A stretch of 64,000 nucleotides of DNA from Armillaria gallica (taxonomy: Eukaryota; Basidiomycota; Agaricomycetes; Agaricales; Physalacriaceae): positions 2,542,001 through 2,606,000 of the forward strand of contig JBANDB010000009.1 in the NCBI GenBank assembly GCA_037576215.1, read 5' to 3'. The notes beneath the pieces were generated by a model. It was not told the origin of the DNA and made no database searches. It worked only from the letters and a program-made list of their open reading frames with translations. Shown here piece by piece: positions 20,588-47,388 of this stretch. Each line of letters begins with the position of its first letter. Position 1 is the first letter of the stretch. The position numbers and the translations under genes were made by a program.

Positions 20588-21952
20588 TAGCAGCCAATAT
20601 TCTATATTAATCACTGTCAATTGACAGGCCAGCTGATAAATCCAGACTATCAATTGATTGGTCATCTAAATAAAGCATTTTTGTCACTGTCACTAAAGCA
20701 GGACATCATCACAGCCTCCCCTTTGATGGCTGTTGCACTGCCACCCTCCTCTCTGCTCATTGTCAGGGTCCCCCATCCTCTCTTCTACTGTTGCACACTT
20801 TTTTCTTTTTAGAAAAGTTGCTTTCAATGCTTCCAGAATGCTTGTGGGCTTTATTTCTGCCCTCCTGCTTGCTGTTTTGAGCAGAGATTTAAAATCTGAA
20901 GTCTTCTAAAAATATATTATAGATTAGTAAGCTAACCCTGCCTCTCCTGAGCCCCTAGAGGCTGGATTCAGCCACAGGAGACTGGATGTAGTGTGGCAGT
21001 GCAGCCAATTGATGAGATCAGCTATCAATATCAGGCCATTTTCAGACAAATCTGGGATTGGGGCAGTTTCTGGGTACTGGATGGGCTAGGGGATGGTACT
21101 AGTATATGCACATATGTAAATAACATAAAAGTGAACCCTCTGGTGAGGTATGAGGGCCCTGGGGAGGAGGTAAAAAGGGTAAAATAGTAAAAAATAGTGG
21201 AAAATCGCACAGAATTCGCATTTTGGTAGGGCTACATGCATCGGATTGCTTTGAAAACTTGACCAATGAATTTCCTGGTCTTGAAAACCCCTAAGCAACC
21301 TCTCTACAGTATATATGGCACATTTTATGGCTAGAGATAATTGGCAAAATTAGCTTTTTATAGTGCTGTATACATTGGATTGCTCCGGGGATGTTACCAA
21401 TCAATTTCTACACTATGAAAATTCTAAAATACATCTTCATATGCTATATATGACCACTGTAATGAGATGAAAAATAGAGAATTAGAGGAAAATATGGTTT
21501 ATTTTGTTTTCTAGCCATCGTGATGGTCTGGGGACATCACCAATTGATTTCTTGATCTTTAAAACCCTCAAACGACTCTTGGTTTCATTTGTGGGGTCTC
21601 AGTATCGATCATCATAATGATATACAAGTTTAGGAGGAGCACATATGGAAACTCATATTTCTGAGCTTTGGAAAACTTCAGAGTTGTTGCTAATAAATTC
21701 CTTAACCTTGAAAGCTCCCAGAACACCCCAAGAACATAATACAGACCTTCAGAATATATAGAGAAAAGTATAATAGTGAAAATCTGTGAAATACCATATA
21801 GCTCGCATTTCTGAATGTTGGGGAAGGTAATTCTAGTATGCAATACATGATATATATTGTATAATAGTGTGTACAAAAGACTAGGATGATCTGAAATGTA
21901 TTGGCAGAGATATAAGGAGATCTTTCTAAAAATGAGAAGGAGCACCCTCCAG
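20588..21952. repeat. left arm of foldback element (1365-bp inverted repeat)
   Basis: It reads tagcagccaatattctatat at the outer end, then aatcactgtcaattgacagg, and continues to ctttctaaaaatgagaagga. The whole arm matches the complement of 46024-47388 at a high level over an equal length of 1365 bp. It interrupts the Copia gag. The few open frames in it have no recognisable product. Confidence 0.85.
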
Positions 21953-22052
21953 ATTTCAATGTTCTGATCATCCCATGCTCTGGGGACTATCAGATTCAGA
22001 TTCCTGAACTCAAAAAACATTAGACTCATATATTATCCCTAGAGGTAATTTT
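21953..22052. other. left half of foldback centre plus left LINE target duplication
   Basis: After the arms diverge at 21952, about 85 bp of unique centre remain (atttcaatgttctgatcatc ...). These are followed by ccctagaggtaattt at 22037-22051, which recurs in expanded form at 45940-45965. A T-rich run follows, as expected for the A-tail of a minus-strand LINE. Confidence 0.6.
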
Positions 22053-22399
22053 TTATTTATTTAGTGGAGCTTATAAGATTCTCACAGCTAACAATGTTAG
22101 TCTAAGAACCCAGCTAAATATGAGGAGTTTCATCTTTTATGTTTGAGCCACCCTGGGAAAATGCTTTATGCACTTCGTATAGGACTTCTATTATTTTTTA
22201 GATATGGTATACCCATTAAAACCCCAGGCTGCCTGATCCAATCATCTGGCAGCTTCTCTTCTTCATATAAACAGCTGCTCCATGTGTGGAGTACTAGTTT
22301 AAGATTTAAGTTCTCCTTTTTGTTTTTGTAGGTTCTTGCAATTTGGCAGTCAAGTATTAGTCTTTGGTTAATACTGGAGACCTATCAATTATGAATTTC

Positions 22400-23560
22400 T
22401 GGTTTTGAGTGCCATTTTATCTCATCATCTTGCTTGGCAATTCATTGTTCACAGCGTAGTTTCTATATTAGAAAAGCTGATTCTGATATTGAGATGCGGT
22501 ATAGTCTATTTTTGCTATATAATAGTTGATTGTTTTTATTGTGAAATTGTGCAAGACCACATATAAGATTTTTTCCATATGTGATCTGTGGCCATTGATT
22601 TCCAGTGTTTTCCCATAGCTGTTCATAGAGTTTACATATAATATTTTGAGCAGATATCTGTCTGCAGTCTATTAATATATGTTCTAATGATTTTTCTGTC
22701 CCACATTTCAGACATATTGCTCAGTGTGAGTAATTTGGTATATTATCCCAGTATCTTCCACATTTATATGCATTATATAGCATCATCCATAGGAAGTTTC
22801 TTATTGTTCTTGTTATATCTTTGCTTTTTATTGATAGCCATATCTGTGAATCTGTTAGTATATGTCTGCTTAGATCCTTTGCAGCATATTGGGTTATGTC
22901 CAGATTGATCATAGTTGATTTATTATTCTCTGTATTATTTATGTGATTGTCTACATATACAAAGAGGGTATTTGATTCTCTTTGTCTTAACCATGCAACT
23001 GTTCTTTTGATTTCATAGGCATTTTTTACTCCAATCCATCCTTTATCTTCATAGTAAGGAAGTGAGCTAGTTATTGCATTTATCATATACTTAGATTTTG
23101 ATTCAATTTTTAGTTGGATGTCTTTGGGTATTTTGCAGACAATGTATTCTGCAGCATATAATTCACCTGTTTTAGTGTTTTGGTACAGTCCTAGGATTCT
23201 GCATGTTTTATTTATAATATTATCTTTGTTGATCCATATTTCACTTCCTGCTTAGGCATTTATGTCTCCATTCATTTTACATACTCCATTTGTATATACT
23301 GTTATGATATTATTTCTTGTTTTTCTTAATATAGATATATCCTTAAGATTATCTTCTATAGTTGTGAATATTTGTAGTGCATTATAAATTTTGTTTGATG
23401 TTAGTAGTTTGTACTCAAAGGTTTTTATAGGATTATCACTGCTTTCTTGTGATTCCTTGTCTAAAGTTTCTTCACTTTCATATCCATCATCATTCTGTGG
23501 TCTCCAGTGTGTGGGCAGCTCATTTAGCAGTTTTTTCACTATTAGTAGACATTTTGCAGG
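22400..23560 (-). pseudogene. LINE ORF2 C-terminus: RNase H and terminal Cys/His region
   Basis: The complement encodes ITVYTNGVCKMNGDINA (the first Asp/Asn strand, with YTNG for the usual YTDGS), GELYAAEYIVCKIPKD (catalytic Glu in the AE position), then WLRQRESNTLFVYVDNHINN (third acidic site). After it, AICLKCGTEKSLEHILIDC is the CxxC..HxxxxC zinc-like tail of LINEs. YTNG means the first catalytic Asp is Asn, a G-to-A type change. Confidence 0.75.
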
Positions 23561-23889
23561 GTTTGTGCAGCCTTTGCATCTTTCTGCTTTACACTTATTA
23601 CATTTGCATTTTTTACCTGATATCTTATAGTTATTTGGTTGGTTTGCTGTTATGTTTATTGCATCTCCTACAATGTATATTTTATGGTTCTCTCAGAGAC
23701 ATTTGCCTTGTTTTGAATTTGTTATCCTGTTGGTTTTTGCTAATGATACATTATGATATCATAGTGGCATTTTGCCTTTTTCTTTATTTGTGAGAGTTTG
23801 TGCATCAATTTTAAGATTGTATTCTTTAGCTTGTTTTACTATTTGTATAAGGTCTTGTAATAAACTAGTATTTTGTTTTGTTGTGACAT

Positions 23890-25700
23890 TCTATGATTGA
23901 AGAAACATATTCATTTTTGTATTATTATCTATTTTTTTATGTTTATATGATACATTCATTGCATATAGTGCATGTGCAGTATTTTGCCATGTAGCTTGGT
24001 TGAAGTTATTGCATAATGGTGACTTAAGAGTAATTAACATGATTGCTTTGTTTTTGATTGAAGGTCTAGTAGATTCTTCCCACCTTGATTTTTTTGATGC
24101 ATAAAGTGTTTTTAGACTTACTGGTGATGATTTAGTGTTATTCCATATGAAGTTGCAGATTTTTTTGATTAAGATAGTTTCAATATGGTTTGGCATGCCT
24201 TGGACTTTAGTTAGAAATTGTGTTCCATTTCCTACAACCAGTTGTATTATATAGCTATGTCCTTCTAATGTTGGATGACTTTTATTCCATTGTGCTAGTG
24301 ATTTGTTAATTTTTTCTATTATTGGTGTCCAAGGTGTTGTATTATCTATGTTGTTTCCAATCCAGCAGCCAAGAGAGCATATTGTTTCACCTTCTTGGAC
24401 AATGTGGATGTTGTGTGGTATTTTGTTATCATATTCATTTAATTGTCTTGATTTGTAAACTGTTTCTTTATATTTTTTTTATACCTATTAGTATACATTT
24501 TGTCTTTTCAATATTGAATTTTGCTCTTGAGGCCAGACACCATTCTGTAAGAGTTTTTTGTAGTTCATTTAAGGAGTTATTTTCGATAAATAGACTGTTG
24601 TGTCATCTGCAAAGAGTTTTGTTATAAGATTGTCTATTGATCCTAGTATATGTAGACCTTGGATATTTGAGTCATGTAGCATACATGCTAGTGGCTAAAT
24701 TGCAATATTAAACAGGAGACATGATAGGAGGTCACCCTGTCTTACCTCTCTAGTTATTGTATATGGTTGACTTAATTCTCCATTGATGATTACAATTGTT
24801 TTTACTTGATTATATAAGGATTTGACAATGTTGATAAAGCGGTTGTGAATATTACATGCTGCCATTGTTTCTCATAGGTAGTCATGTGCTATTTTATTGT
24901 ATGCTTTTTCTTGATCTAAGGCAATAATTACACTGTTCTGCTCTGATGCTTCTGCATATTGGATTGTTAGCTTTGATAACATTGTTTGGTCAAATATATT
25001 GTGGCCTTTAATAAATCCTATTTGGTCTTCATATATTATATCTGGTGCTATGTTTGCAAGTTTTATTGCTAGTGTTTTGGTAAAGATTTTGTAGTCACTG
25101 TTTAGGAGAGTTATTGGTTGATAGTTTACAATATCATTGTGGTTTTTTTTTTTTGTAAATTGGGCACATCCATCCTGTGTTAAAATCTGTGCTTTCTATT
25201 ATACTATATTTTTCAATATCATTAAAGACTTTTATTAAGACTTTAACTATGTTGAAGGTGGGTTTTCTGCTAGCTTATCTTCTCTATAGTGAATGACAAG
25301 TGTTTTTGGTAGTTCATTTGGAAGGCCATCAATTCCAGCTGCTACATCATTTGCTGATATAGCGATTGCTTCCTGGACTTGGATCTATCATATATTTTTT
25401 CCAAGCTTTTGTTTTTGGACTTCTGAAATTTTGTTTTCAAGTTTCTGTATAACTTTTGTTATTATTTCATTGCAATTTGCTTCTTCTATTATGGGTATAT
25501 CTGTTGATTGTATATCATTATGATAGTTTCCAGCAATTTCTACTATTTCTGATGTTTTTGTTTTGTATGTTGGATTTTTAGCAGATGAGTTTGGTTCTTT
25601 TAGCTCATATATTGTATCTCTTGGTCTTCTAGATTTATTAAGATTAATTCAGTATTTACTTATTATTTCACCATGTAGATGATTTTGTACTCTAGATTTT
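23890..25700 (-). pseudogene. LINE ORF2 reverse transcriptase domain
   Basis: On the complement near 24780-24590 the RT core reads TREVRQGDLLSCLLFNIAI, then a stop, PLACMLHDSNIQGLHI and TKLFADDTTV, where FADD is the catalytic motif. Thumb and downstream segments (KICNFIWNNTKSSPVSLKTL at about 24150) follow. Several stops and frameshifts make it non-functional. Confidence 0.8.
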
Positions 25701-25899
25701 GCGTTTTTTGTATTGTATCTTTGTTTCTAAAGTTCAATGATGTGTTCTTGGAGAAGTGCAGCTGATAGTGTCTTTTCTTCATAATTGATATTGTTATTAT
25801 TCAAGGTGCAATCTAGCTGCCCTTCTAGTTGCTAATTTTTTGTATCATCTGATTTTTAAATTTTTATAAAGTGTTTGCACATTTCTAATTTCTGTACAT

Positions 25900-26871
25900 T
25901 CATTAAATTCTGATTTTTCTATTTGTGATTCAGTTCCAAGCCAAGGTCTCGGATTTCTTTCATTAACTTTTTATTTTTTAGTAAATATAGTGGCATTGTC
26001 CATCTTCCACAGCCAATGTATGGAGCTTTAAGGTTTATGAGTTCTACAGTGACTAGTTTATAGTCTGTTGGAATATAGGTGGCTTTTATGCCCCAGTTGC
26101 AGTATAAGGATGTGAGTTCATTTGCAGTATATATATGATCTATTTTTGACTGAGATCCAGTAGATAGTTGCATAAATGTAAATGCTATTGATGTTGGGTT
26201 TGTTTTTCACCATCCATCTTTTAATTGGAGAAGACTTTTTAATTCTGAAAGTGCTTGTGTTGCACCTGTGTTGTCTCTGTGACATGGTAGTCTATCAATC
26301 ATGTCTTCTACAATGTTTGTGTCTCCCAGCATAAAGTCTGAGATTGGAAGATTCTTCTCATTTCAGATTTGTAGTAGGCTCTCCCAGAATTGTTTGTTCT
26401 CAGTTGGATCATTTGGTGCATATATGGTTAATATTGAAATCGTGAGTGTATGATGCTATGGAAGCCTTATCATTATTGCTCTTCCTGGAATGATTTCATA
26501 ATAGTCAATATTTTGGGTATTTGTTATTTCTTTGTTCAGTACAATTGCAACTCCTTTTGCATTTGGTTGTTGTGGGTCAGCAGAATAGTATATATGCATG
26601 TGTTTACTATAGATGTTGTGGATATCTTTCACATGCTCATTTGTTAAGTGTGTTTCTTGAAGTGCTAGTACTCTGATTTTCTCATTTCAGAGAATTTCAT
26701 TTACTTGTTTCTATTTGTTTTTTTCATGTCATATATTGTTATGCCCTCTTCCTTTAATGTTTAGTGAGGCAATTTTAATACTAGCATGAGTATTCTTTTT
26801 TATTTTATCTGTTATATTCTTTATAGCTATTTTGGAGTTGTATTGTGATTGTTGGTTTCCTTGACTTTATA
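25900..26871 (-). pseudogene. LINE ORF2 endonuclease (EEP/APE-type), 3' portion
   Basis: On the complement: ASLNIKGRGHNN, VLALQETHL (catalytic Glu), ADPQQPNAKGVAIVLNKEI, DFMLGDTNIVED (GDxN site), SKIDHIYTANELTS, and TDYKLVTVEL where the family has SDHxxV. Three stops fall at Trp-like positions in the N-terminal part, consistent with G-to-A damage. The His-to-Tyr change in the last motif would abolish catalysis. The coding region continues 5' of the Ty3 insertion at 40119. Confidence 0.8.
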
Positions 26872-26876
26872 TATTG
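26872..26876. repeat. Ty3 target-site duplication, left copy (TATTG)
   Basis: TATTG immediately precedes the LTR at 26877 and recurs at 40114-40118 right after the other LTR. This is the 5-bp duplication expected of LTR-element integrases. Confidence 0.9.
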
Positions 26877-27250
26877 TGTTATGACTGGACTCGGGAATAA
26901 CGGACTTGGCATCCAATGAGTTCTGTCTCTCACTTTGGACAGCTCGATGGACCCGTAGAGTCTATTACAGCGAAGCGGCACAGCACGTTAACTCTTGGCA
27001 AGCAATAAGAGTAAGTCCGGGGTGGTATTAAACTTAGCTCAAAGCTAGGGTACATGGCTGAGAGCTGTGCTACTTATATACTGCTGTGAAGGCTAAATTT
27101 AGTCGATGGGTAGCGGCTTTGATAGAAGTCGTGAGGCAACTCGTGGGATCGTTGGGGTAACACGTGGTGCTACTGGGCTGAAGGTGATAAGATAAGATAG
27201 GATCGTCAGGCCGGTAGTGATAAGATAAGTGAAAAAATAAGATCGTAACA
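26877..27250 (-). mobile_element. Ty3 3' LTR (374 bp)
   Basis: tgttatgactggactcggga ... taagatcgtaaca. It has the same length as 39740-40113 with about 19 differences by eye, most at CpG sites. The adjacent 27251-27263 (tcaccccccctgcc-like, purine-rich GGCAGGGGGGTGA on the sense strand) is the polypurine tract, so this is the 3' LTR. Confidence 0.92.
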
Positions 27251-27263
27251 TCACCCCCCTGCC

Positions 27264-28660
27264 AAGGCAGGCGTCCCGACTGCCTGTATGGCATTGTGTC
27301 AGTTTTCGTAGTCAGCAATAGCCTCTTGTGCATGTTCCATATCATCTTCTCTGACCCAGGAGTTATGTTCCCGAGTCCAGCCTTTCCGTGATGGATCACT
27401 TTTCATTTGATGAAGTAATCCATCATGGTTCTGGATTTTCATCCTCACCAACCACATACCAGTCATGGTCAGGCATCAAGTACTTCCTCAACTTCATATT
27501 CCTCATCATTTTCAATAAGGTCTGGTGGCGGTGGTGGTGGCAATTCTTGGTTGGGAAATGCCAGTGGTGTATACGGTGTTAGGAGTTTTTCATTGAATCG
27601 TGGGTGAACCTTCCAGTGAGGTGGTAATTTGAGCTTGTATGTGCTGGTGCCCACCTTTTTGAGGATCAGGAAGGGGCCAACGCGCTTGTCGTCCAACTTT
27701 TTCTTTGGTTGAGGGAGGTGAAGGTTTGTGGCATCAAGCCATATGCAGTCTCAATTTGGTAAGGATGAGGCAAGCACTTTTTCTTATCGTATTGCACTTT
27801 CATCTTTCCAGCGGCTTCCTCAAGTGCCTTCTGTGTTTCAGCGTGGACCTTAGTCATGTTTTTGATGAAGTCTTCGGCAGCGGGATTTGAGAAAGGTGTC
27901 AATCATGGGGAGTCGGGGATGATTCGGGGATTTCGGCCATACAGTACCATGAAAGGACTTTTGCCTGTCGTGCTGTGGATGCGGTTGTTGTGTGCGAACT
28001 CAGCAAGGGGGAGCCAATCACTCCAGTCGGTCTGTCTATGATTTACGAAGATTCAAAGGTACTTTTCGATCTCTTGATTAACTCGTTTGGTCTGCCTGTC
28101 AGTCTGAGGGTGGAATGCAGTGGATGCGTTGGGCGTGATGTCAAGCATTCGGTATAATTCCTTCATAAATTTGGAGACAAATTGCGGACCACAATCCGAT
28201 ATCACTACTTGGGACATCCCATAGCATGCGTAGACGTGATCTCGTAGGATTCGAGCCCATCCTTTGGCTGACAGCTCAGTGTTACAGGCGACGGGGATGA
28301 TGGCTTTCGAGAATCAATCGACGATCATGAGGATCGCATCATGCCCGTTTGATTCGGGAAGTCCAGTGACCATGTTGATGGAAATATGGGTCCACGGTCT
28401 GACGGGTACAGTGTTTGGATAGAGCGGGGCCACCTTGGCCGCAGTGCTCGACTTGGTTCATTGACAGGTTTCACAGCCTTTGATGTAGGCCTCGACGTCC
28501 TTCTTCATCTTCGGCCACCAATAGTCTCGGAGTACTAACTCCTTCGTCTTCTTGATCCCTGGGTGACCAGCCATGATGTGATCGTGGTATTGGGAAATGA
28601 TTTCGCCCTGTAGCATCTTCTTGCGGGGTACGTAGATTCTGTTGTCATAATACAACATCC
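27264..28660 (-). pseudogene. Ty3 integrase with C-terminal chromodomain
   Basis: On the complement, zinc-binding H2C2 reads YHDHIMAGHPGIKKTKELVL, then KGCETCQ (28458-28658). The catalytic core follows with the first Asp in DAILMIVD, the second in VVISDCGPQFVSKF (SDCG for the usual SDRG), and the Glu in RVNQEIEKYLR. The GPF/Y module is RVGPFLILKKVGTSTYKLKL and HPRFNEKLLTPY, then a Pro run and EYEVEEVLDA, the start of a chromodomain, which would target heterochromatin. SDCG is an Arg-to-Cys change at a CpG. In-frame stops occur. Confidence 0.88.
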
Positions 28661-28748
28661 CTTCCTTTCAGGATATCCCTCGTTCATGGTGGAGGGATGT
28701 GGCAATGCCCTTGTCCCACAATTCTTCTTGTCAGGTGGCTTCTTTAAT

Positions 28749-29366
28749 TCACTGATGTACCTCCACGGCTGTTGGCATGATGAGAGCACGAAAGTGGGTG
28801 GGTTGAAGGATGACGATGTCGTTGTTGTCTCTCGAGCCTTGATCGTGGTCGGCGTGCCAGAATAGCAGGTCAGCTTTCACGTTCTGGGTGCCAGGCTTAT
28901 GAAAGAGCTTGAAGTGGTATTCTGCGAGTTCCATAACCCAACATGCTTGTTGTTGATTCAGCTTTTGTGGTAGCCGGAAGTATTGGAGGTTCTGGTGATC
29001 CATCCAGATTTCTATATCGTGCTTAGCACCCATAAGGTAATGCTGCCATTCTGATAGGGCGAGCATGATTGTGAGTAGCTCCTTGTTGTAGATTTCGTAG
29101 TTCCTTTCTGTGACGCTGAGTGACTTTGACATGAAGGCCATGGGGTGCCAGACCCTGTTCTGCTGTTGACTGAGGACAGCGCCGACTGCTCCCTTGCTGG
29201 AGTCAGCTTCTACTTGGAAGGGTTCGTCATCGTTCGGTATGGTGAGAATGACATCCTCAGCCATGCGCCTCTTCAGCTCCTGGAATGCTTTGTCCTGCGC
29301 TTCCGCCCATCTCCATTCCGTGTTGCCAGTGAGCTGCGTGAGGGGTCGGACAACCTTTGAGTACAT
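28749..29366 (-). pseudogene. Ty3 RNase H domain
   Basis: About 205 open residues on the complement: WRWAEAQDKAFQELKRRMAE, PFQVEADSSKGAVGAVLSQQ, NYEIYNKELLTIMLALSEW, HDIEIWMDHQNLQYFRLPQK and QARWVMEL-like QQACWVMELAEYHF. This is the classical Ty3 tether and RNase H order (EADSS, NKELL, DHQNL). It continues in frame with the end of RT across a small frameshift. Confidence 0.9.
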
Positions 29367-30150
29367 TTTGATGAATTTTCAGTAAAAGTTCATGAAGCCA
29401 AGGAACGATTGAAGTTCCTTCTTCTTTTGGGGCATCGGCCATTCTGCGATGCCGGCGATCTTGACTGGGTCCATTCGGATGGAATCCTGGCTGATGATCA
29501 CGCCGAGGTATTCCGTTTCGAGTACTTTGAATTCGCACTTTTCTGCCTTAAGGAAAAGCTTGTTTTCGCGAAGTTGTTGAAGAACACGCTTCACAATCCA
29601 TCGGTGCTCCCCCAGGTCTTTGGAGAAGATCAGGATGTCATCCAGATAAATGGTGACCTTGCCTTCGGCAATCAGGTCCTTGAAGATGTCGTTCATCATC
29701 CATTGGAATGTCGCAGGCAAATTTGTGAGCCCGAAGAACATGACGGTGGGTTCAAAAAGCCCTCGGTTCGTACGGAAGGCAGCTTTTTCCTTGTCTCCTT
29801 CCCTGATTCGGACGTTGTTATACCCCAATAAACGTCGAGCTTGGTGAAAAACTTGGTGCCACGCAGCTTGTCAATGAGTTCGGAGATGAGTGGCAATGGA
29901 TATCGGTTTTTGATGGTCATCTCATTGAGCTTGCAGTAGTCCTGTACTGGCCGCAATGTGCCATCCTTTTTCTTCACAAAGAAGAATGGGGAGGCAAAGG
30001 GTGACTTGGATGGGCGGATATGACCGGACTCCAAGTTTTCATCAAGGAACTTGTCGAGCTGCTCCTGTTTGTTTCAGTTCAAGGGATAGACCTTACAGTC
30101 CAAGGTCGACTTCGCATTCAGGACGAGCTCAATGGCATGGTCCCATGGCT
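29257..30150 (-). pseudogene. Ty3 reverse transcriptase domain
   Basis: On the complement: [86 protein letters not shown], and the catalytic IYLDDILIFSKD (YLDD), then CEFKVLETEYLGVIIS. Motif order and spacing are typical. The frame changes near 29830 (two overlapping open segments), marking an indel. Confidence 0.92.
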
Positions 30151-30151
30151 T

Positions 30152-31190
30152 TCACTCAGGTAATTCGTCAAAGTTATCTTTCGAGAACAAGTCACGGAAA
30201 GAGTGATAGTGCTCGGGCACTAGTTCTTCGAAGGTTCTCCTGGGTTTGTCAGCATTAGCATTGGCTGCAAGGTCATTCGCATGGTGCATCGAGTGAATGA
30301 CCAGCTCTTCCTCCATTCGTACCACCAGGATGGTGTCCCCTTCCTTGAGTTCTTCATCCCAGCAGTCATCGGGGTCAGGGTTGGGGAGTTCAATGTGGTT
30401 TCCAACGCATTGACAGTGTCCAAAAACGACGCTGCCCGTCTTCCAGTTTATGACGGGGTTATGACGCCGAAGCCAATCGTGTCCGAGATATACATCCCAC
30501 TTTCCTAGGTCCATGACTGCGAGGTTGATTCGTTCACAATGCTCTCCGATTGTGAGACAAAGTTCTATGAACTCGGTTACATCGCTGCCCTTGTTTCAGG
30601 TTCCGTCTGCATTATATACCAGAATGGGTATTAATACCTTCCTAGTGTCAAGGTTATGTTCTTCAACATAGGCGTGGTTAATGGCACTTCCAGTGCATCC
30701 ACTATCAAGGAGTGCCTTCGTGGATAAAACTTTTCGCCCCGTACAGGGCTCCAGGACAACGGGGATCATCAAATTGCTGGTTCCCCCATGGATGTACCAA
30801 ATTGGCTCTCATAACTTGTACAGTCATTCTCAGGCCAACTCCCAGTCACCGGTACGAAGTTGGTCAAGGATTGGGTCGGTGAGCTCTTGAATTTGTTCTG
30901 GTGTACCCAGGAACAAAGTCAGGATCGAGCTCCGGTGTTGGTGAGGGCCCCTCGCACGTATCGTAGGGTCCAATCCACCTCGAATGGTTTTAACCATCCC
31001 GAGGGTCCTTTATCCTGGTGGCGGGTCATCGGTTCTTTGGCGTCATTCTCTTGTCTTCGGAGGGAGGGCAAAGAAGTGGCAGGGAGGCCAATTGGGCTCC
31101 CTTTCGCCTTCCATTGCCGATAAGAGGTGTCATCCTCCTCGTCTGGTACTTCTACCAGGGTTACTGAGTGCCCCCTCTTTACCACCTGGG
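30152..31190 (-). pseudogene. Ty3 aspartic protease and upstream gag-pol linker
   Basis: On the complement near 30760-30640: STKALLDSGCTGSAINHAYV, where DSGCTG is the catalytic loop, then NLAVMDLGKWDVYLGHDWLR and NPVINWKTGSVVF. These are the retropepsin hallmarks of Ty3 (DSG, hDWL). A stop sits in the flap region (about 30600). Upstream 30919-31185 (VTLVEVPDEEDDTSYRQW ...) is linker of no recognised function. Confidence 0.85.
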
Positions 31191-31192
31191 CA

Positions 31193-33478: not shown

Positions 33479-33489
33479 CCGCTCTTCCA

Positions 33490-34440: not shown

Positions 34441-34479
34441 ACTTCTTTTCTGACCTTTGACCACCATCTCCCACAGCCG

Positions 34480-35670: not shown

Positions 35671-35744
35671 AGGGTTTTTTTTTTATTGATATTTCTCATG
35701 TATTTAAGTAGATACATATATTATAATTTACACAGTAACTATGA

Positions 35745-37000: not shown

Positions 37001-38760
37001 GTTTCTCTCCCTTGCATGGGCAATCTTTACTCAGATGCCCCTTCTTGTCGCACCAGAAACATCATCCTTCCATCCACTGCTTTGCCTTCTTGGCATCAAT
37101 TTCCATTGGAATCCCCTCCCCGAGGTGCGTTTTCTGCGCGATGGGTACCCACTTGCCCCCGGTATCATGGGGCTTTTCGTTCCTGGTTGTTTTGGGAGCG
37201 GGGGAACCCGTCGTGTTTCCCCCAGGCTTGGGGTTCGAGGCGGGGGCACTATGTTTCGACATTGCGCTCAGTCGCTTTTCCGGGTATCGCTCAATCCCTT
37301 GGGTCTGTTCAAAGACCCTCTGTTTCTGCCACTCTTCATACATCTGTAGGATGCGCTGCTTCCATTCGTGATAAGTTCGAGGGATTCCGAATCCGATGTT
37401 GGCAATGGCGGTACCATATAATGGAGGAATTCCCTCCTGACCGCCTGCACCAATAGTCCCTGCTCGGTCTGATCAGCTAGTCGATTGGCGAGTTTTGCCT
37501 CCTGCTCGAGTTTTCAGAAGAAGACATGGGCAGGGTCGCTCCCCATCTTTGTTTCTCCCATTCGTTTTTCATAGATAAGCTCGATGGCAGGGTCACGGAA
37601 TTGCTCTCGAAACATTGCTATGAAGGTATCCCAATCAGGATATCGGTATGGGGTCCCACCTTGTAGTCATCTTCTTCTTCCTGGGTAGCGTTGACTTCTG
37701 GTGGTGGTGGGATATACCAGTAGTTGTCCTGAAGATGGACCCACCAGTCTTGTGTGTTGCCTTCAAGGAGAGACATGGTAAATCCCACCATCAGAGATGG
37801 CATTCCCTGGTAGTATTGTTGGAACGTTTCGAAATACTGCGTGCAGTCCCCAAGGAACCACTCGATGTCATCGTGTTTTCCTTCAAACGGCACTGGTAAC
37901 TTCATTAATATTGGTTTTACCATTGCCATCTTGGGGGGGCGGTCAGTGTTCCAGGCGCCCACTGGGCCGTGAGGAGGAGGCCCACCAAAGTCAGGGGGCC
38001 ATGGAACTGAGAATAGTTGGGGGTTTGGCCCGGTTCAGAGTGGTCATCCCCTGTCGGCAGGCTTCTTTCTGGCTGCAGCGAGATCCTCCTGCAAGTGATT
38101 ATTGTTTTCACGCATCTGGGCAATTTGAGCTTCAAGGCACACAATTCGTTGGGTGTCCGTCTCTTCTGTTTCTTCGTTTTCGACGTCAATGGGTTCATCG
38201 TGGTCTCCCCCTGTGAATAGTCTGCTAGTCCCTTCGTCATGATACTCCCCTCTCCTCCTCCAATCCTTCTTCATTTGGGGCAGGGGTGAGTCAGGAAGGG
38301 GTCCTGGGTTCATCCATGGGGCCCCAGGGAAGGAGAAAGGGGGATAGTCATAGGATCTGCTGGTCCAGGGGATTGGGAAGCCCATCCAAGTCGGGGCGGT
38401 CCCCCTGTAGCCTGGCCAGGGGAAGGAGGGCGCGCTCCAAGGCAGCCTGCTCCCACTCAGTTCGGTGCCGTATGTGGAGTACATGGTTGCCTGCAGATGG
38501 GGGGTATTCTGTTCGGTTGCAGTTGGCGAAGATCCAGGTGTCAATCGTCTGGGCTTGTCTGTATCGAGGAAGTGGATCCCCTCTATTAACAGCAAGGTAG
38601 ATGTCCATACTTTCTTGGATCAGTGCTCTAAACCCCGCTCGGTGTTCGAGGTCCTGCCACCGTAGCTCCCAGGCCTCACTCCTAGCGGGTCCCAAGATCT
38701 GATGTTGATGGGTGAAAGAGCAGGCCACTTGTAATCTCTGCCATGGGGGTTAAGTGGGTC
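36950..38760 (-). pseudogene. Ty3 gag (capsid-like region and CCHC zinc knuckle)
   Basis: Sense order on the complement: SEAWELRWQDLEHRAGFRAL and RQAQTIDTWIFANCNRTEYP (38728-38460); a coiled-coil segment IVCLEAQIAQMRENNNHLQE (38150); the capsid-like FEGKHDDIEWFLGDCTQYFE and LLEGNTQDWWVHLQDNYWY (37880-37720); FREQFRDP and KLEQEAKLANRLADQTEQG (about 37600-37480); and the knuckle CFWCDKKGHLSKDC (CX2CX4HX4C, about 37070-37030). At least three frame changes break it. The knuckle would bind the RNA genome. Confidence 0.85.
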
Positions 38761-38767
38761 GTCATCG

Positions 38768-39441
38768 TTTTAGGGCGGTGGTGATCCTGCATGGACGGGT
38801 TCAGGAGTGACAGGTCTGGGAACATCGGGGGCGTGTGGAACTCCTCGCTCGTCCATGATGACAAGGGGGATACTATCATCTGAGTCGCTGTCGATCTCGA
38901 TTGGCCATCAAGGGTTTCCTCGAGGTTCCTGGACCCTGATTGGTCGATTTCCAGGTCCCGCGAGGCGCGCTCGACCTCCTCTTCCTCTTCCTTGGGGAGT
39001 GGAGTAGGGTGGAGGGTCGGGGTCGGGGTCCTCAATCTGTATGACACGGGTCTCCTCCGTCGCAGGAGTTGCATCCCTGGTGGGCGGGGCAACCTTCCTA
39101 TTCTCGAAGAATTCCTGATTGGATTCGAAGTAGACGGTTGCCGTCTCTCTCCGTCAGTTTCGGGCCAGGGTTCGTTCAGCTTGGAGCCCCGGTCTGATGA
39201 CCACAGGGTCGAGGCAGGGTAGTTCGACATAGTGAGGGGGCACCGGGGGTGGTGGTGGTACAATCAGGACCCCCCGGCAGTAGAGGAAGTTTTGGATTTG
39301 TTCTTGATACATGAGTACGAGGGCAGCAGTGCACAGACACAAAAAGGTGGATATGACAATTGCCGTGCTGAGTGCGATGGTCTGAGCTTTATTAAGGTCC
39401 AGGGTCATCAATATCGGTGCAGCCATTCGATATCCCGCCAA
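38768..39441 (-). pseudogene. upstream Ty3 ORF: single-pass membrane protein with Pro-rich/acidic tail
   Basis: The frame opens MAAPILMTLDLNKAQ with a hydrophobic helix TIALSTAIVISTFLCLCTAA directly after, then YQEQIQNFLYCRG and a Pro run (VPPPPPVPPHYVELP). After a TGA near 39150 the same frame continues (ETATVYFESNQEFFENRK, IEDPDPDPPPYSTPQGRGRG), meets a second TGA near 38912, and ends IEIDSDSDDSIPLVIMDERG ... GSPPP with a stop near 38770. Two isolated stops in an otherwise open 220-codon frame suggest recent inactivation. It lies before gag, where chromoviruses normally have no gene. Function is unknown. Confidence 0.6.
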
Positions 39442-39443
39442 AC

Positions 39444-39520
39444 CTGGGAAAGTTGGTAGAGGAGAATTTTCGAGGAAAAAGGCAACAATGTTTAGGAAAA
39501 GGAGGGTTAGTTGAGCTCAC
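39444..39520 (-). other. predicted 77-bp intron in the Ty3 leader
   Basis: On the sense strand GTGAGCTCAAC (donor, 39520 downward) and a pyrimidine-rich CTACCAACTTTCCCAG acceptor (39444), with CTAAC branch-like sequence inside, match host intron style. Splicing would place the membrane-protein ORF close to the 5' end of the mRNA. Confidence 0.5.
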
Positions 39521-39725
39521 CTTTCCTTAGTCGATGTTGCAGGCGTAGTCGTTGTACCTGCAGTAGTCATAGGAGAAGTTGTCGTAGTCGTCGTCGTGGG
39601 GAGGGCAATTCTGTCACTTGGGGTTTTTATGCCCTTTGTGAGCTTTGGAGGATTTAGGTTGTGTTCGCTTTTGTGCATGTGGGGGTTGTTGAGTGTTGGT
39701 AGTATGCGAGGATACTGGAGAAGAA

Positions 39726-39738
39726 AGCTTCGAGCTAA
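39726..39738 (-). promoter_or_regulatory. Ty3 self-primer binding site
   Basis: TTAGCTCGAAGCT (sense strand) lies one base inside the 5' LTR. Its exact complement AGCTTCGAGCTAA is at 39909-39897 in the LTR, at the predicted start of the transcript. This is the arrangement of Tf1/sushi elements, where the RNA 5' end folds back to prime reverse transcription instead of a tRNA. Confidence 0.8.
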
Positions 39739-39739
39739 C

Positions 39740-40113
39740 TGTTATGACTGGACTCGGGAATAACGGACTCGGCATCCAATGAGTTCTGTCTCTCGCTTTG
39801 GACAGCTTGATGGACCCGTAGAGTCTGTTACAGCGAAGTGGCACAGCGCGTTAACTCTCAGCAAGCGATAAGAGTAAGTCCAGGGTGGTATTAAACTTAG
39901 CTCGAAGCTAGGGTACATGGCTGAGAGCTGTGCTACTTATATACTGCTGTGAAGGCTAAATTTAGTCAATGAGTAGCAGCTTCGATAGAAGTCGTGGGGC
40001 AACTCATGGGATCGTTGGGGTAACACATGGTGCTACTGGGCTGAAGGTGATAAGATAAGATAGGATCGTCAGGCCGGTAGTGATAAGATAAGTGAAAAAA
40101 TAAGATCGTAACA
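39740..40113 (-). mobile_element. Ty3 5' LTR with TATA box and predicted transcription start
   Basis: 374 bp, TG...CA. On the sense strand TATATAAG (39943-39936) is followed about 27-34 bases later by AGCTTCGAGCTAAG (39909 downward), the predicted RNA 5' end. The spacing is normal for a TATA-driven start, and this segment is complementary to the primer site at 39726-39738. The right flank TATTG (40114-40118) is the target duplication. Confidence 0.88.
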
Positions 40114-40118
40114 TATTG

Positions 40119-41000
40119 TTTCCAGTGTTTGGCTGTTCTGTATGCTGGTTTGAACTTATTATTTGTGAGGTTGAATTGTTTGTCTGATGATATGATTGAT
40201 TGTTGTTAAGATGTAGCTCCTCTATTGTAGGACACAAAAGTTTCCCATTTCTACTTGTGTCAATGTTTCCATTGTTATTTTGTAGATTATTCTTAGAGCA
40301 TAATAGCTCTACTGGAGAGTACAGTGACATCTTTGGTGAGTTATACATTCTAGCATTACCACTATTCTGTATTTGCTCAGTTTTATCTTAGGTATAATTC
40401 TCAGGATCTATTGCACTTTTATATATCTTGCGATATATTGTCAGCTCAATTTCTTCTGAGATATATAATTTAGATAGGGTTTGCCTGTCACCTATCTCTC
40501 CTGTTCCTTCATTAGAATTAGAACAGACAGGAATATTCTCAGTCTCTTAGGAATGGAAAAGGTGTATTCTATGACCAGTTTGTTGCACTGTTTGCGATAA
40601 GAGTTTAAAAGTAGTAATATTTGTAGTAGTATTTGTAATTGGCATTTACAGGTCTAGCATCACAACTAGCAACTTTAGCTGGACTGCAGCTCGGTATATC
40701 TCAGACTAAATAGTCTACCATTTGTTTCTATTTCATTCCAATATCCAGTAGTTAGGTGTTGGAATTTATTTTCTACTCTTATTGAAATAGATATAAGATA
40801 GAGGATTTGTTCTGTATTATATTGTTCTGCCTTTTAAAGTTATTTCTTATGACCTGATGCTTTGGTTTAATTTATTGAGTATATTTTCAGATTTCTGTAT
40901 ATCGCATTTATTTTATTGTTTTTTGTATTTTCTAGTTGAGTGTCTGTTTGTTGTTTCATATAATACTAGTTTATTTTGACAGTGTAATACTAGGTTTTCT
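40119..41000 (-). pseudogene. LINE ORF2 5' portion / linker, resumed beyond the Ty3 insertion
   Basis: The complement of 40348-40119 is an Asn/Ser/Gln-rich open stretch (SPVELLCSKNNLQNNNGNID, LHLNNNQSYHQTNNSTSQII) that runs up to the Ty3 target site. Beyond 40350 stops are dense. It precedes the endonuclease in sense order and is probably the ORF2 N-terminal leader. Confidence 0.5.
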
Positions 41001-41059
41001 TTATAGTTTACTTTTGCAATTGCAGGTTGAATTTATCTAGTTATGGTTATTTATCATTT

Positions 41060-42930
41060 ATGTGTCATATTAGGGGTTCTTATAGAGGTCACATGTGGGC
41101 TATGTGTTGCGGTATGGGATGCGTTACTAGGTGCTGTTTATGTTTTCTATTTAGCTCGCTGATTTGTCATTGTTATATGGTTGTCAAGGGATTTACATAA
41201 GTCTATTGTATTCAACATGTTGTAATGTAAGGGTCTATTATGAGAGTGCTAGTCAGTTTCTCCCTCCTTTTCTCTATTTATATGTGTGTATTATTTATTT
41301 GTTTCTTTTCTTTTCTTTTCTTTTGGTAATTGTTGCTAAAGGATCTATACAGATTGAGTTTCAGGCTGTGTGTTGTAATGTATATTATATCATCAGATGG
41401 TCTTTGGTTCTCTTCTTTGCTCACCATTTTATTTTAGCCAATAGTGCTAAGATGTTTATGGAGGTTGATTCATAGTTCATGTGTTGCAGTGGAGATTCTG
41501 TCGTTAGGCACTGTTGGGTTCTCTTCTTTGATTGTTGTTTAGTCATTGATAGGTAGTGCTGAGATTGACCAGGATCCAGTTCCAGGCTCCATGCTATGAT
41601 CCAGATTGTGTCTAGGGCTTCGTGCCATACTGTATATGGTATACAGTTGTATAGAGGATGGCCATCAACTGTCTGAGTTTTAGCTTCAACAGAATGGTGA
41701 TGGCAATGGCTGTTTATACTGTAGGGTGCCTGATGGTTACCAATTTGTCCATTTTTTGGTCCCTACATTAGTGTTTCAATGACATGACTTAGTGTGACTT
41801 TATATGACTTTGGCTTCAATGGCTTTACCGAGTCATAATTTTTGCCAGCTTTGAAGCCAAGTTGCCATCACACCAAAGCCAGCTGTTGAAGCCATGACTT
41901 CATATATTTCCTTCAGATGATAAGTCATTCATTGTTTAGGCAACATGATCTTTAAGAACTTATCAGAGAATTAGCGGGGGGTATCAGGCTGGGTTAAGAT
42001 TGATCTAGAATAGTATTTCAGTATTTATTATTATTATTATTTTTATTTTTATTTTTAAAATCAAGTCAAGGCTTGAGCAACTTCAGGTCCTATCAAGCCC
42101 CACTGGGCTGATACTGAAGTGTGACTTTGCCGAAGTCACTCAGCAATAGCAGTGTGACTTAGTTCAGCTTGACTGGCATGGCGTGTGGCTTTAAGCTGAG
42201 TTATTAAAACACTATCCTGTATAAGACCCATATAGTCCAAATTGGACCTGATGGCATGGATATGATACCTGTATGACAGCATCTGTACAACCGTATTATA
42301 CAGTGATAGTGTGGAGCTCTAATTGCATCACCAGATAGTCTTGGATTTCCTTCTTTGATCACCTTTTTTTATTTTTTATTTTTGGTTATGCCAAGAAGTT
42401 TACAGGGTTAAGTCGCAGGCCATGTGCTGTAGTGTAGGTGTGTCATCTATCATTATTCAGTTTTCTTCTTTAGTCATCCCTTATCATGAGTAGGTTAGTG
42501 TAGAGATTTACAGGGGTCAGGTTCCAGATTGGCATGTTGTGATGTAGAATGTGTCACCAGCTGGTTTTGGATTCTCTTTTTTGATCACCATTTTGTTTTT
42601 ATTTTTGGTTATGCCAAGAAGTTTACAGGGTTAAGTCGCAGGCCATGTGCTGTGGTATCAGTGTGTCACCCATCATTATTCAGTTTTCTTCTTTAGTCAT
42701 CCCTTATCATGAGTGAGTTGATGCCAGGATTTATGAGAGACTGGGGTCAGATTTCAGATTGGTGTGTTATGATATAGATTGCATCATTAGATGGTTTTGG
42801 GTTCTCTTTTTTGATCGCCATTTTATTTTATCAATGGTGCCAAGGGATTTATGGAGGTTGTGTCCCTGCTCACATGTTGTGGCGTAAATTCTGTCACCAG
42901 GTGCTGCTAGATTTTCTTCTCTGGGTCCAA
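41060..42930. repeat. diverged tandem repeats, including a 222-bp direct duplication
   Basis: The blocks tcaccagatggttttgg...ctcttttttgatcaccatttta and ttaagtcgcaggccatgtgctgt recur between 41390 and 42900. The clearest pair shares ttggttatgccaagaagttt (42382 and 42604) and cagttttcttctttagtcat (42461 and 42682), a period of about 222 bp. No gene is supported. Confidence 0.7.
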
Positions 42931-42955
42931 CAGACATGATTGTTTTATTGGTTTC

Positions 42956-43776
42956 TTGCTTATGAGAATGTTTCTGAGTGTTAGTGTTATATTTTTATTT
43001 ATTATTAAAGTGGTCATTATGTATTGGTTTTTGGCCCTGCATTGTATTGGCCTTTATAAGTGCAATGGCATGGCCTTTCTTCATTACATTGTTCAGCTTC
43101 TGCCTATTCTTTGCCTCAGTTGTCTTATTTCATTCTTGTCATTGATTGATTTCATGACTATACCTGCCAGTACCCTTTGGATTATGCAGGTCTGGGGGTT
43201 ATTCCTCATGGTGCGTCATTTGCTTGTGGTGGTGTTTATAACGATACTTATCTTGGTTTTGTATTATTAGATTTGGTATACTACATTCTTGTATATGCTT
43301 TCTCCAGAGTCTGCTGCTACATCACTTGATTCTGATCCTGCCACCATTATTCCTCTGGTATCTGATCTGTCCCCTTCTCCTACTCCTATCTCTATTATCA
43401 CCAGAGATGCCTATCTTTCTCGTTCAGACAGGTTTCATAAGGAGGATAGGGTCATCTTGGTGTCTAGGCTAAGGCGTCCAGCTCAGACAATTAGGTTGGG
43501 GAGTGTGTGAGGAGTGACACAATTTCTGGTATTGAGCATGTTATTCGTTTGGGCTGCATCTACAGGAAGTATATTTTCCTGGACGTTTCATTTTTGAAGC
43601 TTTCAGATAATTCAGTTGTGGTTCTGTGTGCTCACCTTTGTGATGTTGATTTATCATTCTATCAATGTTTGGAGGCTTTCTTGAGAATGCACTTAGGAGG
43701 GCAAGTTCATTATGTGCCTGCTTGGATAGTTAATAGGGATGGGCTTCTCTTTCATTCTGAAGGTGTTACAGTATAG
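42956..43776 (+). pseudogene. unrecognised + strand coding-like segment inside the LINE interval
   Basis: Two abutting frames, 43289-43510 (SLDSDPATIIPLVSDLSPSP, ITRDAYLSRSDRFHKEDRVI) and 43507-43776 (SDTISGIEHVIRLGCIYRKY, LAFLRMHLGGQVHYVPAWIV-like), differ by one frame and read like one protein with a -1 break at 43507. A hydrophobic segment precedes at 42956-43270. No known family is recognised. It sits opposite to the LINE, in a region too long for a standard ORF1-ORF2 gap, so it may belong to another inserted element. Confidence 0.3.
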
Positions 43777-43789
43777 TGCTTCTACATTT

Positions 43790-44147
43790 GTTACATTCTT
43801 TTTCCTTTCATTATTTACTTCATTGTTTTCCTCACTTCATAAGTCACATAACATGGTATTATGATTAATACCTGCACAGATCTACTAGCCATTTTGGTTA
43901 CATGTGATTTTATGTAAATAAGGAGGGAGAGATATTTCGTCAGCTGATATGTAAAGCGTTCACCATGTCATATAGTACATTAGTTCTGCATTCTAGTATA
44001 GTCCATAGTTGAGTCCACGCCCTCCCCTCTATCCTCTTGACTCTTGGTATCCTCTTCCACCACCCCACATCCCTCATCCTCAGTCTGGTCTTGTCTCATG
44101 AGCTGGGGTGTGGTGGATGTCAAAGACTTAAAGTGCATCAAAGTCTA
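43790..44147. other. no feature recognised
   Basis: AT-rich spacer with many stops on both strands and pyrimidine-rich patches. Nothing supported. Confidence 0.5.
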
Positions 44148-45520
44148 TCATGGGTGCTGCATTCTTGTGTCCTGCTGCATGAGGTACTGGTCCACGCCAC
44201 CCAGTAGTGAGGGGGTTGGGTGGTTGATACTATAGCAGAGGGTGCAGTAGAGTTCTTTGGGGTAGTGGATTCCTTTGCCATGGGTGGCCAGGTCAGCATC
44301 AAAGGAGAGGGTTCTGATAAGGTTGTGCCAGATCAGATAAGTATTGAATATTTTGGTTGGAGACATTGCATAGATAGCCCAGGTTCTTTCTTTATGCCCT
44401 CCTGTGACTATCAGATCCATCTTTCTCACTGTTACCAAGTTAACTATCATTGCAACAGCTTGTTCTGGGAATAGGAAAGATGAGATAGCATCATGGTTCG
44501 CAGTGATAAAGGCCATGGCTTCTGAGGAGTTCTATATGGCCATTTTGATAACTCCACTCACTCCCCTAGCACCAGCTTCAGTGTCTGGGTGGGTGAGTTT
44601 GTGAATGGTGGTGAGGTATGTCAGCAGGAGAAGAAAGTAATGATGTTGGTTGACCAGCATTGCTGGGAGACAAGGCAGTCTTTTTGTCCTGTCGTGATGT
44701 TGGATAAGCAGAACAAGAAGGGTTTGATGCCAGGCTGGATTTTGTGTTCGCTTTTGGCAGGACTATAGGTTAAGACTGGTGGCGATAGGCATATATTTTT
44801 ATTCCCAGTGATGCCTTGGATGGCGCTGGTCAAGGAGTCAGTTATTTGGGTGATTTGATTGCCAGAGAAGGAGGGGTTCACAGCATAGAGGAGGCATTTA
44901 GGGTGACTCAGGTTGTCTCAACTGCGCTCGACATAGTTGGATAGGTTGATGGCTGTGCCCGACTTTGTCCATTCTTGAATCCGTCGGAGGACATGGGAGA
45001 AGTGGCTGGGGCATGGATGAGTTGGACACGAGGATGGCGTGGATGGTGTTTTTGTTGTTTGAGTCTATGGTGCCTTCTATATTGAGGTAATCATATTAAA
45101 TGATTAGCTTGCTTTGCATGGTTAAGTTAGGATCTTACCTGGTTGGAAGAGAGGTCCACAGTGGAGTCTCAGGTCGATGTTGGTGTGTACGTTTTTGCTG
45201 TTCAGGCAGCCATGCATAGGAGAAGCTAAGTTTTGAGATAGTGAGAGTGGTAGTTGCACAGCTGTGAGGGGGATTCATACTGTTGTTGGCACTCTTACGT
45301 TGTGGCAGTCAGCAGGGAGGCTATGAGTGAGGCCATTGCACTTATTTTGGTTTCTGAGGAGGACAGGTGGGCAGTGTGATGCAGTGGTGTTGAAATGGAG
45401 CCCTTGGAGGAGGGACGCAGGTTTATTCTGGTAGCCGTAGTAGGCTATTTGGTGTGGTGTCAAGTTTTGAAAGAGCCATGTTTGAGAATCAATGTCTTGT
45501 CTAGATGTAGTTGGGTTCAT
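44148..45520 (-). pseudogene. LINE ORF1 (gag-like) protein with zinc-knuckle, mushroom type
   Basis: On the complement three open stretches follow in sense order: TWLFQNLTPHQIAYYGYQNK (45480-45400); ITDSLTSAIQGITGNKNICL, PFLFCLSNITTGQKDCLVSQ and QCWSTNIITFFSC (44840-44625); then ERTWAIYAMSPTKIFNTYLI, WHNLIRTLSFDADLATHGKG and ELYCTLCYSINHPTPS (44400-44190). The WST..ITFF and CxxC....HPT pattern resembles ORF1 proteins I associate with Agaricomycete LINEs. The final knuckle Cys is lost by a frame shift. Recognition is from memory of the pattern, hence moderate confidence. Confidence 0.5.
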
Positions 45521-46023
45521 TTACTTCATTGTTGGTCCATGCAGTGACTTGGGGCAGCTGTACAGTTGTTAGTCATTGCGGTGTCTGGGGTCGCATACTC
45601 TGTATGCAGTGTGTTGGTTTTGTGACTGCATTTTTTCTATTAGTACTCAGTAGTGTTGGGGCTTTGAAGCTTGACGACTTTGCTCTCTTAATAGAGATCG
45701 GATACGTGATAGTGTGCCTTCACATGATAGTGATTTGTTTAGCGTGATGGCTATCTATGTGCATATACTGATGGGATTTCAAATATGCACTGGTTTATTT
45801 TGCTGCAATGATAATGCTCACAAGGGAGGAAATGATTAGTTTCCAGTATAATGGTGCATTATCTTAGAGCTTGACCATCTCTTGTCTGCATAATGAAATG
45901 CAAATACTCGACCACATGGTGGTACAAGATCAAGGGTCTCCCTAGAGGGGGGGGGTAAATTTTAATAGTGCAATATCTATGCACAGAAGATATCTTTATG
46001 CATAACTGAGTGCACATTCATTA
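45521..46023. other. LINE 5' end, right LINE target duplication and right half of foldback centre
   Basis: LINE 5' sequence runs to about 45939. At 45940 ccctagagg extends into a run of nine to ten G and then taaatttt, the expanded partner of 22037-22051. About 58 bp of unique centre (aatagtgcaatatctatgca ...) lead to the right arm at 46024. Confidence 0.6.
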
Positions 46024-47388
46024 CTGGAGGGTGCTTCTTCTCATTTTTAGAAAGATCTTCTTATATCTCTGCCAATACATTTCAGATCATCCTAGTCTTT
46101 TGTACACACTATTATACAATATATATCATGTATTGCATACTAGAATTACCTTCCCCAACATTCAGAAATGTGAGCTATATGGTATTTCACAGATTTTCAC
46201 TATTACACTTTTCTCTATGTATTCTGAAGGTCTGTATTATGTTCTTGGGGTGTTCTGGGAGCTTTCAAGGTCAAGGAATTTATTAGCAACAACTCTGAAG
46301 TTTTCCAAAGCTCAGAAATGTGAGTTTCCATGTGTGCTCCTCCTAAACTGTTATATCATTATAATGATCAATACTGAGACCCCACAAATGAAACCAAGAG
46401 TTGTTTGGGGTTTTAAAGGTCAAGAAATCAATTGGTGATGTCCCCAGACCACCACGATAGCTAGAAAACAAAATAAACTATATTTTCCCCCCAATCCTCT
46501 ATTTTTCATCTCATTACAGTAGTCATATATAGCATATGAAGATGTATTCTAGAATTTTCATAGTGTAAAAATTGATTAGTAACATCCCCAGGGCAATCCA
46601 ATGTATGCAGCATCATAAAAAGCCAATTTTGCTGATTATCCCTAGCCATAAAATGTGCCATATGTACTGTAGAGGGGTTGCTTAGGGGTTTTCAAGGCCA
46701 GGGAATTCATTGGTCAAGTTTTCAAAGCAATCCAATGCATGTAGCCCTGCCAAAATGCGAATTCTGTGTGATTTTCTGCTATTTTTTACTATTTTACTCT
46801 TTTTACCCCCTCCCCAGGGCCCTCATATCTCACCAGAAGGTTCACTTTTATGTTATTTACATATGTGTATATACTAGTACCATCCCCTAGCCTATTCAGT
46901 ACCCAGAAACTGCCTCAATCCCAGATTTGTCTAAAAATGGCCTGATATTGATAGCTGATCTCATCAATTAGCTGCACTGCCACACTACATCCAGTCTCCT
47001 GTGGCTGAATCCAGCCTCTAGGGGCTCAGGAGGGGCAGGGTTAGCTTACTAATCTATAATATATTTTTAGAAGACTTCAAATTTTAAATCTCAGCCCAAA
47101 ACAGCAAGCAGGAGGGCAGGAATAAGGCCCACAAGCATTCTGAAAGCATTGAAAGCAACTTTCCTAAAAAGGAAAAAGTGTGCAATAGTAGGAGGGATGA
47201 TGAGAGACCCTGACAATGAGCAGAGGGGAGGGTGGCAGTGCAACAGCCATCAAAGGGGAGGCTGTAACAATGTCCTGCTCTAGTGACAGTGACAAAAATG
47301 CTTTATTTAAGTGGCCAGTCAATTGACAGTCTGGATTTATCAGCTGGCCTGTCAATTGACAGTGATTGATATATGAAAGTGGCTGCTA
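46024..47388. repeat. right arm of foldback element (1365-bp inverted repeat)
   Basis: The inverse of 20588-21952: starts ctggagggtgcttcttctca and ends ctgtcaattgacagtgattg then ggctgcta. Differences between arms are mainly transitions. The Copia gag N-terminus begins immediately outside. Confidence 0.85.

Follow-up and report, generated by a model that had tools for sequence, protein, structure and literature searches.

The long inverted arms in the stretch of Armillaria gallica DNA analysed here (the window: 64,000 nucleotides, C9:2542001-2606000 of an 86-Mb assembly) are best read as one old, damaged copy of a family of coding-free, non-autonomous DNA transposons that are near-perfect palindromes of about 3 kb. 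We think it reasonably likely that this family keeps itself palindromic, in that arm-to-arm copying would hold the arms at about 0.2% divergence while nested long terminal repeats (LTRs) diverge by 4-6%, would bridge gaps as long as about 13 kb, and would flip the spacer yet leave six tip bases different. The best explanation as a whole, which we hold with good confidence, is that the palindromes are mobilised by a KDZ transposase, that their arms are homogenised after insertion and that the window copy is drifting. Instability is expected of near-perfect palindromes of kilobase length; despite this, 15 of the 26 loci examined carry uninterrupted ones, and LTR elements nested in other copies serve as a built-in clock by which homogenisation of inserted copies can be told from their simply being young.

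A preliminary description of the window had proposed that one foldback element arrived as a unit and was afterwards opened by a long interspersed nuclear element (LINE), and had suggested a genome search for further arms and for palindromes free of the LINE. The arms are real: 20588-21952 and 46024-47388 align as inverted copies with 93.85% identity over 1,366 columns and 2 gap openings, and are the top-scoring repeat pair in the window. A search of the assembly with the left arm gave at least 56 matches at a minimum of 26 loci, grouped manually from the best 40 of 204 candidates. The repetition is not due to chance, and the family is larger than 26 loci, since only those 40 candidates were scored; later searches added copies such as C14:1656295-1659518, C7:1098596-1100750 and C10:2745337. 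The uninterrupted palindromes (L009, L012-L014, L016, L017, L022-L024, L028-L033) are about 3.0-3.4 kb long. Fourteen of them measure 3,017-3,363 bp, most of it in arms of about 1.43-1.64 kb around a spacer of 91-163 bp, as befits a foldback element, and a single spacer type recurs across many copies. The centre of the window copy, first described as about 85 + 60 bp, was about 90-160 bp long; this copy has lost 114 bp, absent relative to L009 where the spacer meets the right arm, which is why its arm is shorter than the others. Some palindromes carry an additional tandem unit of about 165 bp in the arm (L014 in one arm only), and L010, L026, L044, L051 and L056 are short derivatives of 1,150-2,067 bp. 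L009 has no Pfam match in six frames, so the palindrome itself encodes no KDZ transposase; one frame of the window's left arm likewise gave no Pfam match.

The two ends of these elements are not alike. One palindrome end starts CACCTGTAGCAG... and the opposite end CAGCCTTAGCAG..., with CACCTAAT... and CAGCCTGG... in the subfamily L029-L032. Both window arms run 6 bp further out than first described, and these true ends show asymmetric tips, CACCTG and CAGCCT. The outer 24 bp or so are unlike between the two ends, whereas the remaining arm scarcely varies; in L016 the ends are distinct at the outermost 6 bp only. A genome pattern search with 29-bp ends, allowing up to 3 mismatches, found 32 of the CACCTG type and 24 of the CAGCCT type, against none for either reversed control. 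Of 21 copies, 19 have flanks that agree at 5 or more of the 7 bases (mismatched control pairings reached at least 5 in 11 of 420), and L015 has an exact 7-bp duplication, CGGCCCC, which brings target-site duplications (TSDs) to 20 of the 22 copies examined. In all of these the TSD lies outside both arms, as expected of an element that moves as a unit. L028 (C5:371472-374818) has two CACCTG-type ends, the sole copy with like tips among those with both tips examined, and unmatched flanks; it may be a recombination product of two copies, comparable to the chimeric Galileo copies with mismatched flanks.

Single arms with duplications of their own, named in the preliminary description as evidence against a single unit, did not appear among the copies looked at. 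Three copies are one-armed (L011, L021, L025), with no partner arm among the best 40 candidates of each search, and L011, which retains spacer past its arm, looks like a truncated palindrome. Another six (L046, L058, L059, L061, L062, L064) have little beyond the terminal 45-95 bp in common with the palindrome. L062, with an extra 51-bp arm piece 1.4 kb inside its end, may be an interrupted palindrome, and L020 with L046 is a candidate for one interrupted copy bearing two CACCTG ends.

Within copies, the arms are far more alike than descent from a shared palindrome would predict. An arm tree was built from 38 arms at 19 of the 26 loci of the first search, excluding L010, L011, L021, L025, L026, L027 and L034 (arm missing, partial or of mixed type) and the copies found later. 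The two arms were sisters in all 19 copies, with support of 0.994 or more. Beyond the outer 30 bp, the arms of the 18 copies other than the window copy differ at 54 of 25,777 sites (0.21%), and the nearest arm from another copy is 2.3-12.4% divergent. Such a pattern indicates homogenisation; otherwise the arms of one copy would be expected to differ no less than those of different copies descended from a shared palindromic ancestor. Half of the differences (27/54) fall within the outer or inner 150 sites, which make up 21% of positions (p=2e-6). The spacer, assigned by hand, has one orientation with respect to the ends in 11 copies and is reversed in 9 (20 copies, excluding L028 with its like ends and L027, whose ends were not identified; L010, L021, L025 and L026 have no recognisable spacer). 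On the tree, its orientation requires 6 changes over 18 tips compared with a mean of 6.3 for shuffled labels, and therefore carries no detectable trace of descent.

Two copies contain a clock that dates this homogenisation, under the premise that LTRs are identical when inserted. In L018/L019, which spans C10:2960458-2971578, an LTR retrotransposon (TSD CCTAT) sits in the inner arm; its LTRs differ at 17 of 433 sites (3.9%; 13/417 outside CpG), while the palindrome arms show 1 difference in 1,333 sites across 8.4 kb (p=5e-10). In L049/L071, which spans C5:2467721-2483368, another (TSD GTTAT) sits in the spacer, with 23 of 380 LTR sites different (6.1%), and 2 of 1,294 sites differ between arms that are separated by about 12.8 kb (p=2e-13). 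Diverged LTRs beside near-identical arms imply that homogenisation goes on after insertion. Sister arms and low within-copy divergence would equally be predicted if each transposition rebuilt a perfect palindrome, through hairpin or snap-back copying in excision or repair, and nothing happened thereafter; L018 and L049 contradict this unless their LTRs differed at the outset. The TSDs, which have no homology with the arms, have also decayed more: TSD pairs differ at 8 of 126 sites (18 copies) compared with 53 of 24,461 arm sites (17 copies; p=9e-10), and at 5 of 91 compared with 40 of 18,769 in the 13 copies that enter both counts (p=2e-6). L010, L026, L044, L051 and L056 enter the TSD count only, and the excess lies mostly at CpG (6/12 TSD sites, 15/952 arm sites). 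We therefore regard rebuilding without later homogenisation as unlikely.

Palindromes are hard to assemble, and arm identity might in principle be produced by assembly or polishing. The copies, however, have distinct flanks on either side with matching TSDs, unlike fold-back chimeric reads, and the same assembly preserves differences of 6.2% in the window arms and of 4-6% in LTR pairs. An artefact is on these grounds very unlikely.

The window copy behaves differently. Between its arms there are 84 differences in 1,354 sites (6.2%), of which 73 are transitions; they are distributed over the length of the arm, and their frequency is much higher than in the other 18 copies (p=3e-73). This divergence is not distinguishable from that of the LTR pair of a Ty3/Gypsy element nested in the LINE (18/374, every one a transition; p=0.39). 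On a simple reading, opening of the spacer stopped conversion in this copy.

The candidate source of the transposase lies in larger elements with the same ends. The preliminary description had seen no transposase and suggested looking for an autonomous relative with the same ends; the first point stands for the palindrome, and in the genome two elements with these end types have KDZ matches. C5:4469514-4483154 (13.6 kb) and C18:1272089-1287059 (15.0 kb) each have both end types and an exact 7-bp TSD (TGAACTA and AGTTTGG), and both contain matches to the KDZ transposase model (PF18758) with the KDZ-associated CxC2 domain (PF18803) adjoining. Across the assembly there are at least 169 KDZ matches (best 150 of 233 candidates scored) and 124 CxC2 matches. 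The outer 94-95 bp of the palindromes are 81-90% identical to the CAGCCT end of the C5 element, whose CACCTG end is L064. The C5 element matches only this terminal part, and no source was found for the arm sequence past the first 95 bp or so. The inverted ends of the larger elements extend over 659 bp at 83.6% identity in C5 and 362 bp at 95.9% in C18. A second CACCTG-type end inside C5 (L065:3199), directly beside one KDZ fragment, suggests that another KDZ element is nested there; no partner for this end turned up in the stretches examined. A third CAGCCT end, at C11:2930824, has a KDZ match about 2.7 kb inside and no partner end found, and L061 has a KDZ match near its end, again with no partner end in the stretches examined.

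On the basis of TSD length, termini and the same-ended KDZ elements, the palindromes are best read as non-autonomous, Kyakuja-like KDZ derivatives, and would apparently be moved by the enzyme of another transposon. Kyakuja elements have 7-bp TSDs and 5'-CA..TG-3' termini, and Zisupton an 8-bp TSD, according to the available part of PMC12730594. Both Kyakuja features are found in the palindrome family, and the KDZ gene, absent from L009, is present in the two larger elements. The label "Kyakuja-like", as opposed to Zisupton or Dileera, is tentative, and Pfam has one KDZ model.

Two further observations concern these elements. Three palindromes, L009, L026 and L013, have KDZ/CxC2 matches (C10:2656700-2658058, C15:1726356-1727733 and C2:6251572-6251889) at a distance of about 2.5 kb or less. 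That is more copies than our expectation for random placement, which does not control for general clustering of repeats. Two different elements with these ends each have a short open frame directed towards the CACCTG end (L058:397-630 and L064:361-696), and the two frames are 39% identical over 54 residues; that of L058 has no Pfam match.

Other affiliations fare less well. A Galileo-like member of the P superfamily would likewise have long terminal inverted repeats (TIRs), 7-bp flanks and 98-100% within-copy TIR identity (available part of PMC3573991), but these ends and this TSD length bound KDZ elements here, which makes it extremely unlikely. The CACTA affinity proposed in the preliminary description draws on a CACTG motif about 25-30 bp inside the end and on CA..TG termini; the outermost bases are, however, CACCTG and CAGCCT rather than CACTA-type, the TSD is 7 bp rather than the 2-3 bp of CACTA/EnSpm elements (families with 3-bp TSDs are described in the accessible part of PMC12730594), and same-ended elements have KDZ matches, so that this origin is scarcely credible. 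Nor can much credence be given to each copy having turned palindromic separately through inverted duplication after insertion, which would account for sister arms but not for the recurring spacer, the TSDs outside both arms or the spacer in both orientations relative to the ends.

We propose that the palindrome is inserted, with a 7-bp duplication, by a KDZ transposase that is probably Kyakuja-like, is supplied by the larger elements and can recognise the two asymmetric ends (CACCTG... and CAGCCT...), as the shared ends, TSD length and the relatives' gene suggest. The arms of an inserted copy would then go on recombining with each other: gene conversion would hold them near-identical and crossovers would flip the spacer, a process, with its enzymes, that we infer from the observed pattern. 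The outermost 6-24 bp would escape conversion, so that the two tips remain unlike, and these asymmetric tips may have a role of their own. In the window copy, the LINE would have opened the spacer and the Gypsy element widened the gap to 24 kb, the arms thereafter diverging like neutral sequence.

Several results weigh against this reading. The dating depends on two positive cases, L018 and L049, and there is one exception, the window copy. In L049, 10 of 128 sites differ in a stretch adjacent to the spacer, and this copy lacks its left outer end; L018 and L028 show no TSD, with flanks agreeing at 0 and 2 of 7 bases. Outside CpG, the excess of TSD decay shrinks to 2/114 compared with 38/23,509 in the arms (p=0.016), and the clustering of differences at arm edges weakens to 19/46 (p=0.002) after the innermost 30 spacer-bordering sites are dropped. 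In the window, non-CpG divergence is higher in the arms (78/1,338) than in the nested LTRs (5/328), implying that drift began before the Gypsy element arrived and hence before the 24-kb gap existed. Without that element the gap is at most about 10.7 kb, whereas L049 is still homogenised at 12.8 kb, so gap length alone is not shown as the cause. Identity of the inverted ends, 95.9% in C18 at 15 kb compared with 83.6% in C5, indicates that long-range homogenisation is uneven. As to the enzyme, which KDZ match in C5 goes with the outer ends is uncertain and the CxC2 match may belong to the inner element. Kyakuja elements are described without TIRs (PMC12730594), whereas the palindromes and the C5 and C18 elements have inverted ends.

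The layout of the window copy is given in the table. Its flanks agree at 5 of 7 bases, and we infer an original GACGAGT altered by two CpG transitions, one per strand. As first described, the element went in as a unit and was opened afterwards, and the inserted interval is bounded by CCCTAGAGG duplications. The LINE itself is identified by RVT_1 and Exo_endo_phos matches over the Pfam cut-off, with RNase_H below it, in one minus frame of 22036-26876; the right part of the interval, 40115-45960, gave no domain match when 5 of its 6 frames were scanned. The nested Ty3/Gypsy element was recognised by an RT_RNaseH match. The host had been called a Copia gag: the left flank is indeed a minus-strand Ty1/Copia remnant, with RVT_2 and gag_pre-integrase matches, but no domain was found in the right flank, so that "gag" is deduced from position. 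Elsewhere in the window, an Erv1-type frame at 11203-11778 has 91% identity with a protein named from Armillaria borealis and, next, 84% with one from Guyanagaster, which fits an Armillaria-like host. Further, 15211-17026 and 31709-33478 are repeats of each other, 83-86% alike, the second being internally repetitive around 32030-32320, and 55540-56619 and 62563-63647 are direct repeats of 1.1 kb, 91% alike.

Table. Features of the palindrome copy in the window and of the elements inserted in it (window positions)
Feature	Position	Strand	Remark
Target-site duplication, left copy	20575..20581	.	GACAAGT, 7 bp
CAGCCT-type outer tip	20582..20587	+	Beyond the end first described
Left arm	20582..21952	+	
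Inner arm and spacer remnant left of LINE	21953..22036	+	Colinear with copy L009, by eye
CCCTAGAGG, LINE target duplication, left copy	22037..22045	.	
Spacer insertion: LINE with nested Ty3/Gypsy element	22046..45939	-	
Nested Ty3/Gypsy LTR	26877..27250	.	TSD TATTG seen in flanks
Nested Ty3/Gypsy partner LTR	39740..40113	.	
CCCTAGAGG, LINE target duplication, right copy	45940..45948	.	
Spacer remnant right of LINE	45949..46023	+	
Right arm	46024..47394	-	
CACCTG-type outer tip	47389..47394	-	Reads CAGGTG on the forward strand, to 47394
Target-site duplication, right copy	47395..47401	.	GATGAGT, 7 bp

These copies allow conversion between arms to be measured in a single fungus, together with the way it depends on gap length and affects transposon ends; if our reading is true, they are natural reporters, dispersed through the genome, of intrachromosomal gene conversion. 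The KDZ superfamily, which has been sparsely described, would gain a non-autonomous palindromic partner; none was found among the titles and abstract openings of the open literature searched.

The palindromes of sex chromosomes also have arms kept near-identical through arm-to-arm conversion, together with spacer inversion; they are unique loci, whereas the palindromes described here are mobile repeats. Among KDZ elements, the two Laccaria Kyakuja families lack TIRs and carry a gene for a TET/JBP dioxygenase, as far as the available text of PMC12730594 goes. The A. gallica elements resemble Kyakuja in their 7-bp TSD, CA..TG termini and the KDZ matches of same-ended elements, and differ from the Laccaria families in the long inverted ends of the larger elements, in the coding-free palindromic derivatives and in that no Tet_JBP match exceeds the cut-off in the genome, where three weak ones occur. 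KDZ1-KDZ3 of Cryptococcus neoformans share the KDZ transposase and the presence of TIRs (139-241 bp, in elements of about 9-11 kb); their TSDs differ in length (8 bp in KDZ1, 4-8 bp in KDZ2 and KDZ3), and the accessible part of PMC12810828 has no palindromic derivatives. Galileo of Drosophila is likewise a foldback element, whose long TIRs have internal tandem units and are 98-100% alike within a copy, and whose chimeric copies have mismatched 7-bp flanks (PMC3573991, in its available part). Given Galileo, similarity between the TIRs of one foldback copy does not count as new. Galileo has a P-superfamily transposase, whereas the palindromes described here are tied to KDZ elements, are nearly all arm around a spacer of 91-163 bp, and have had their homogenisation dated with nested LTRs.

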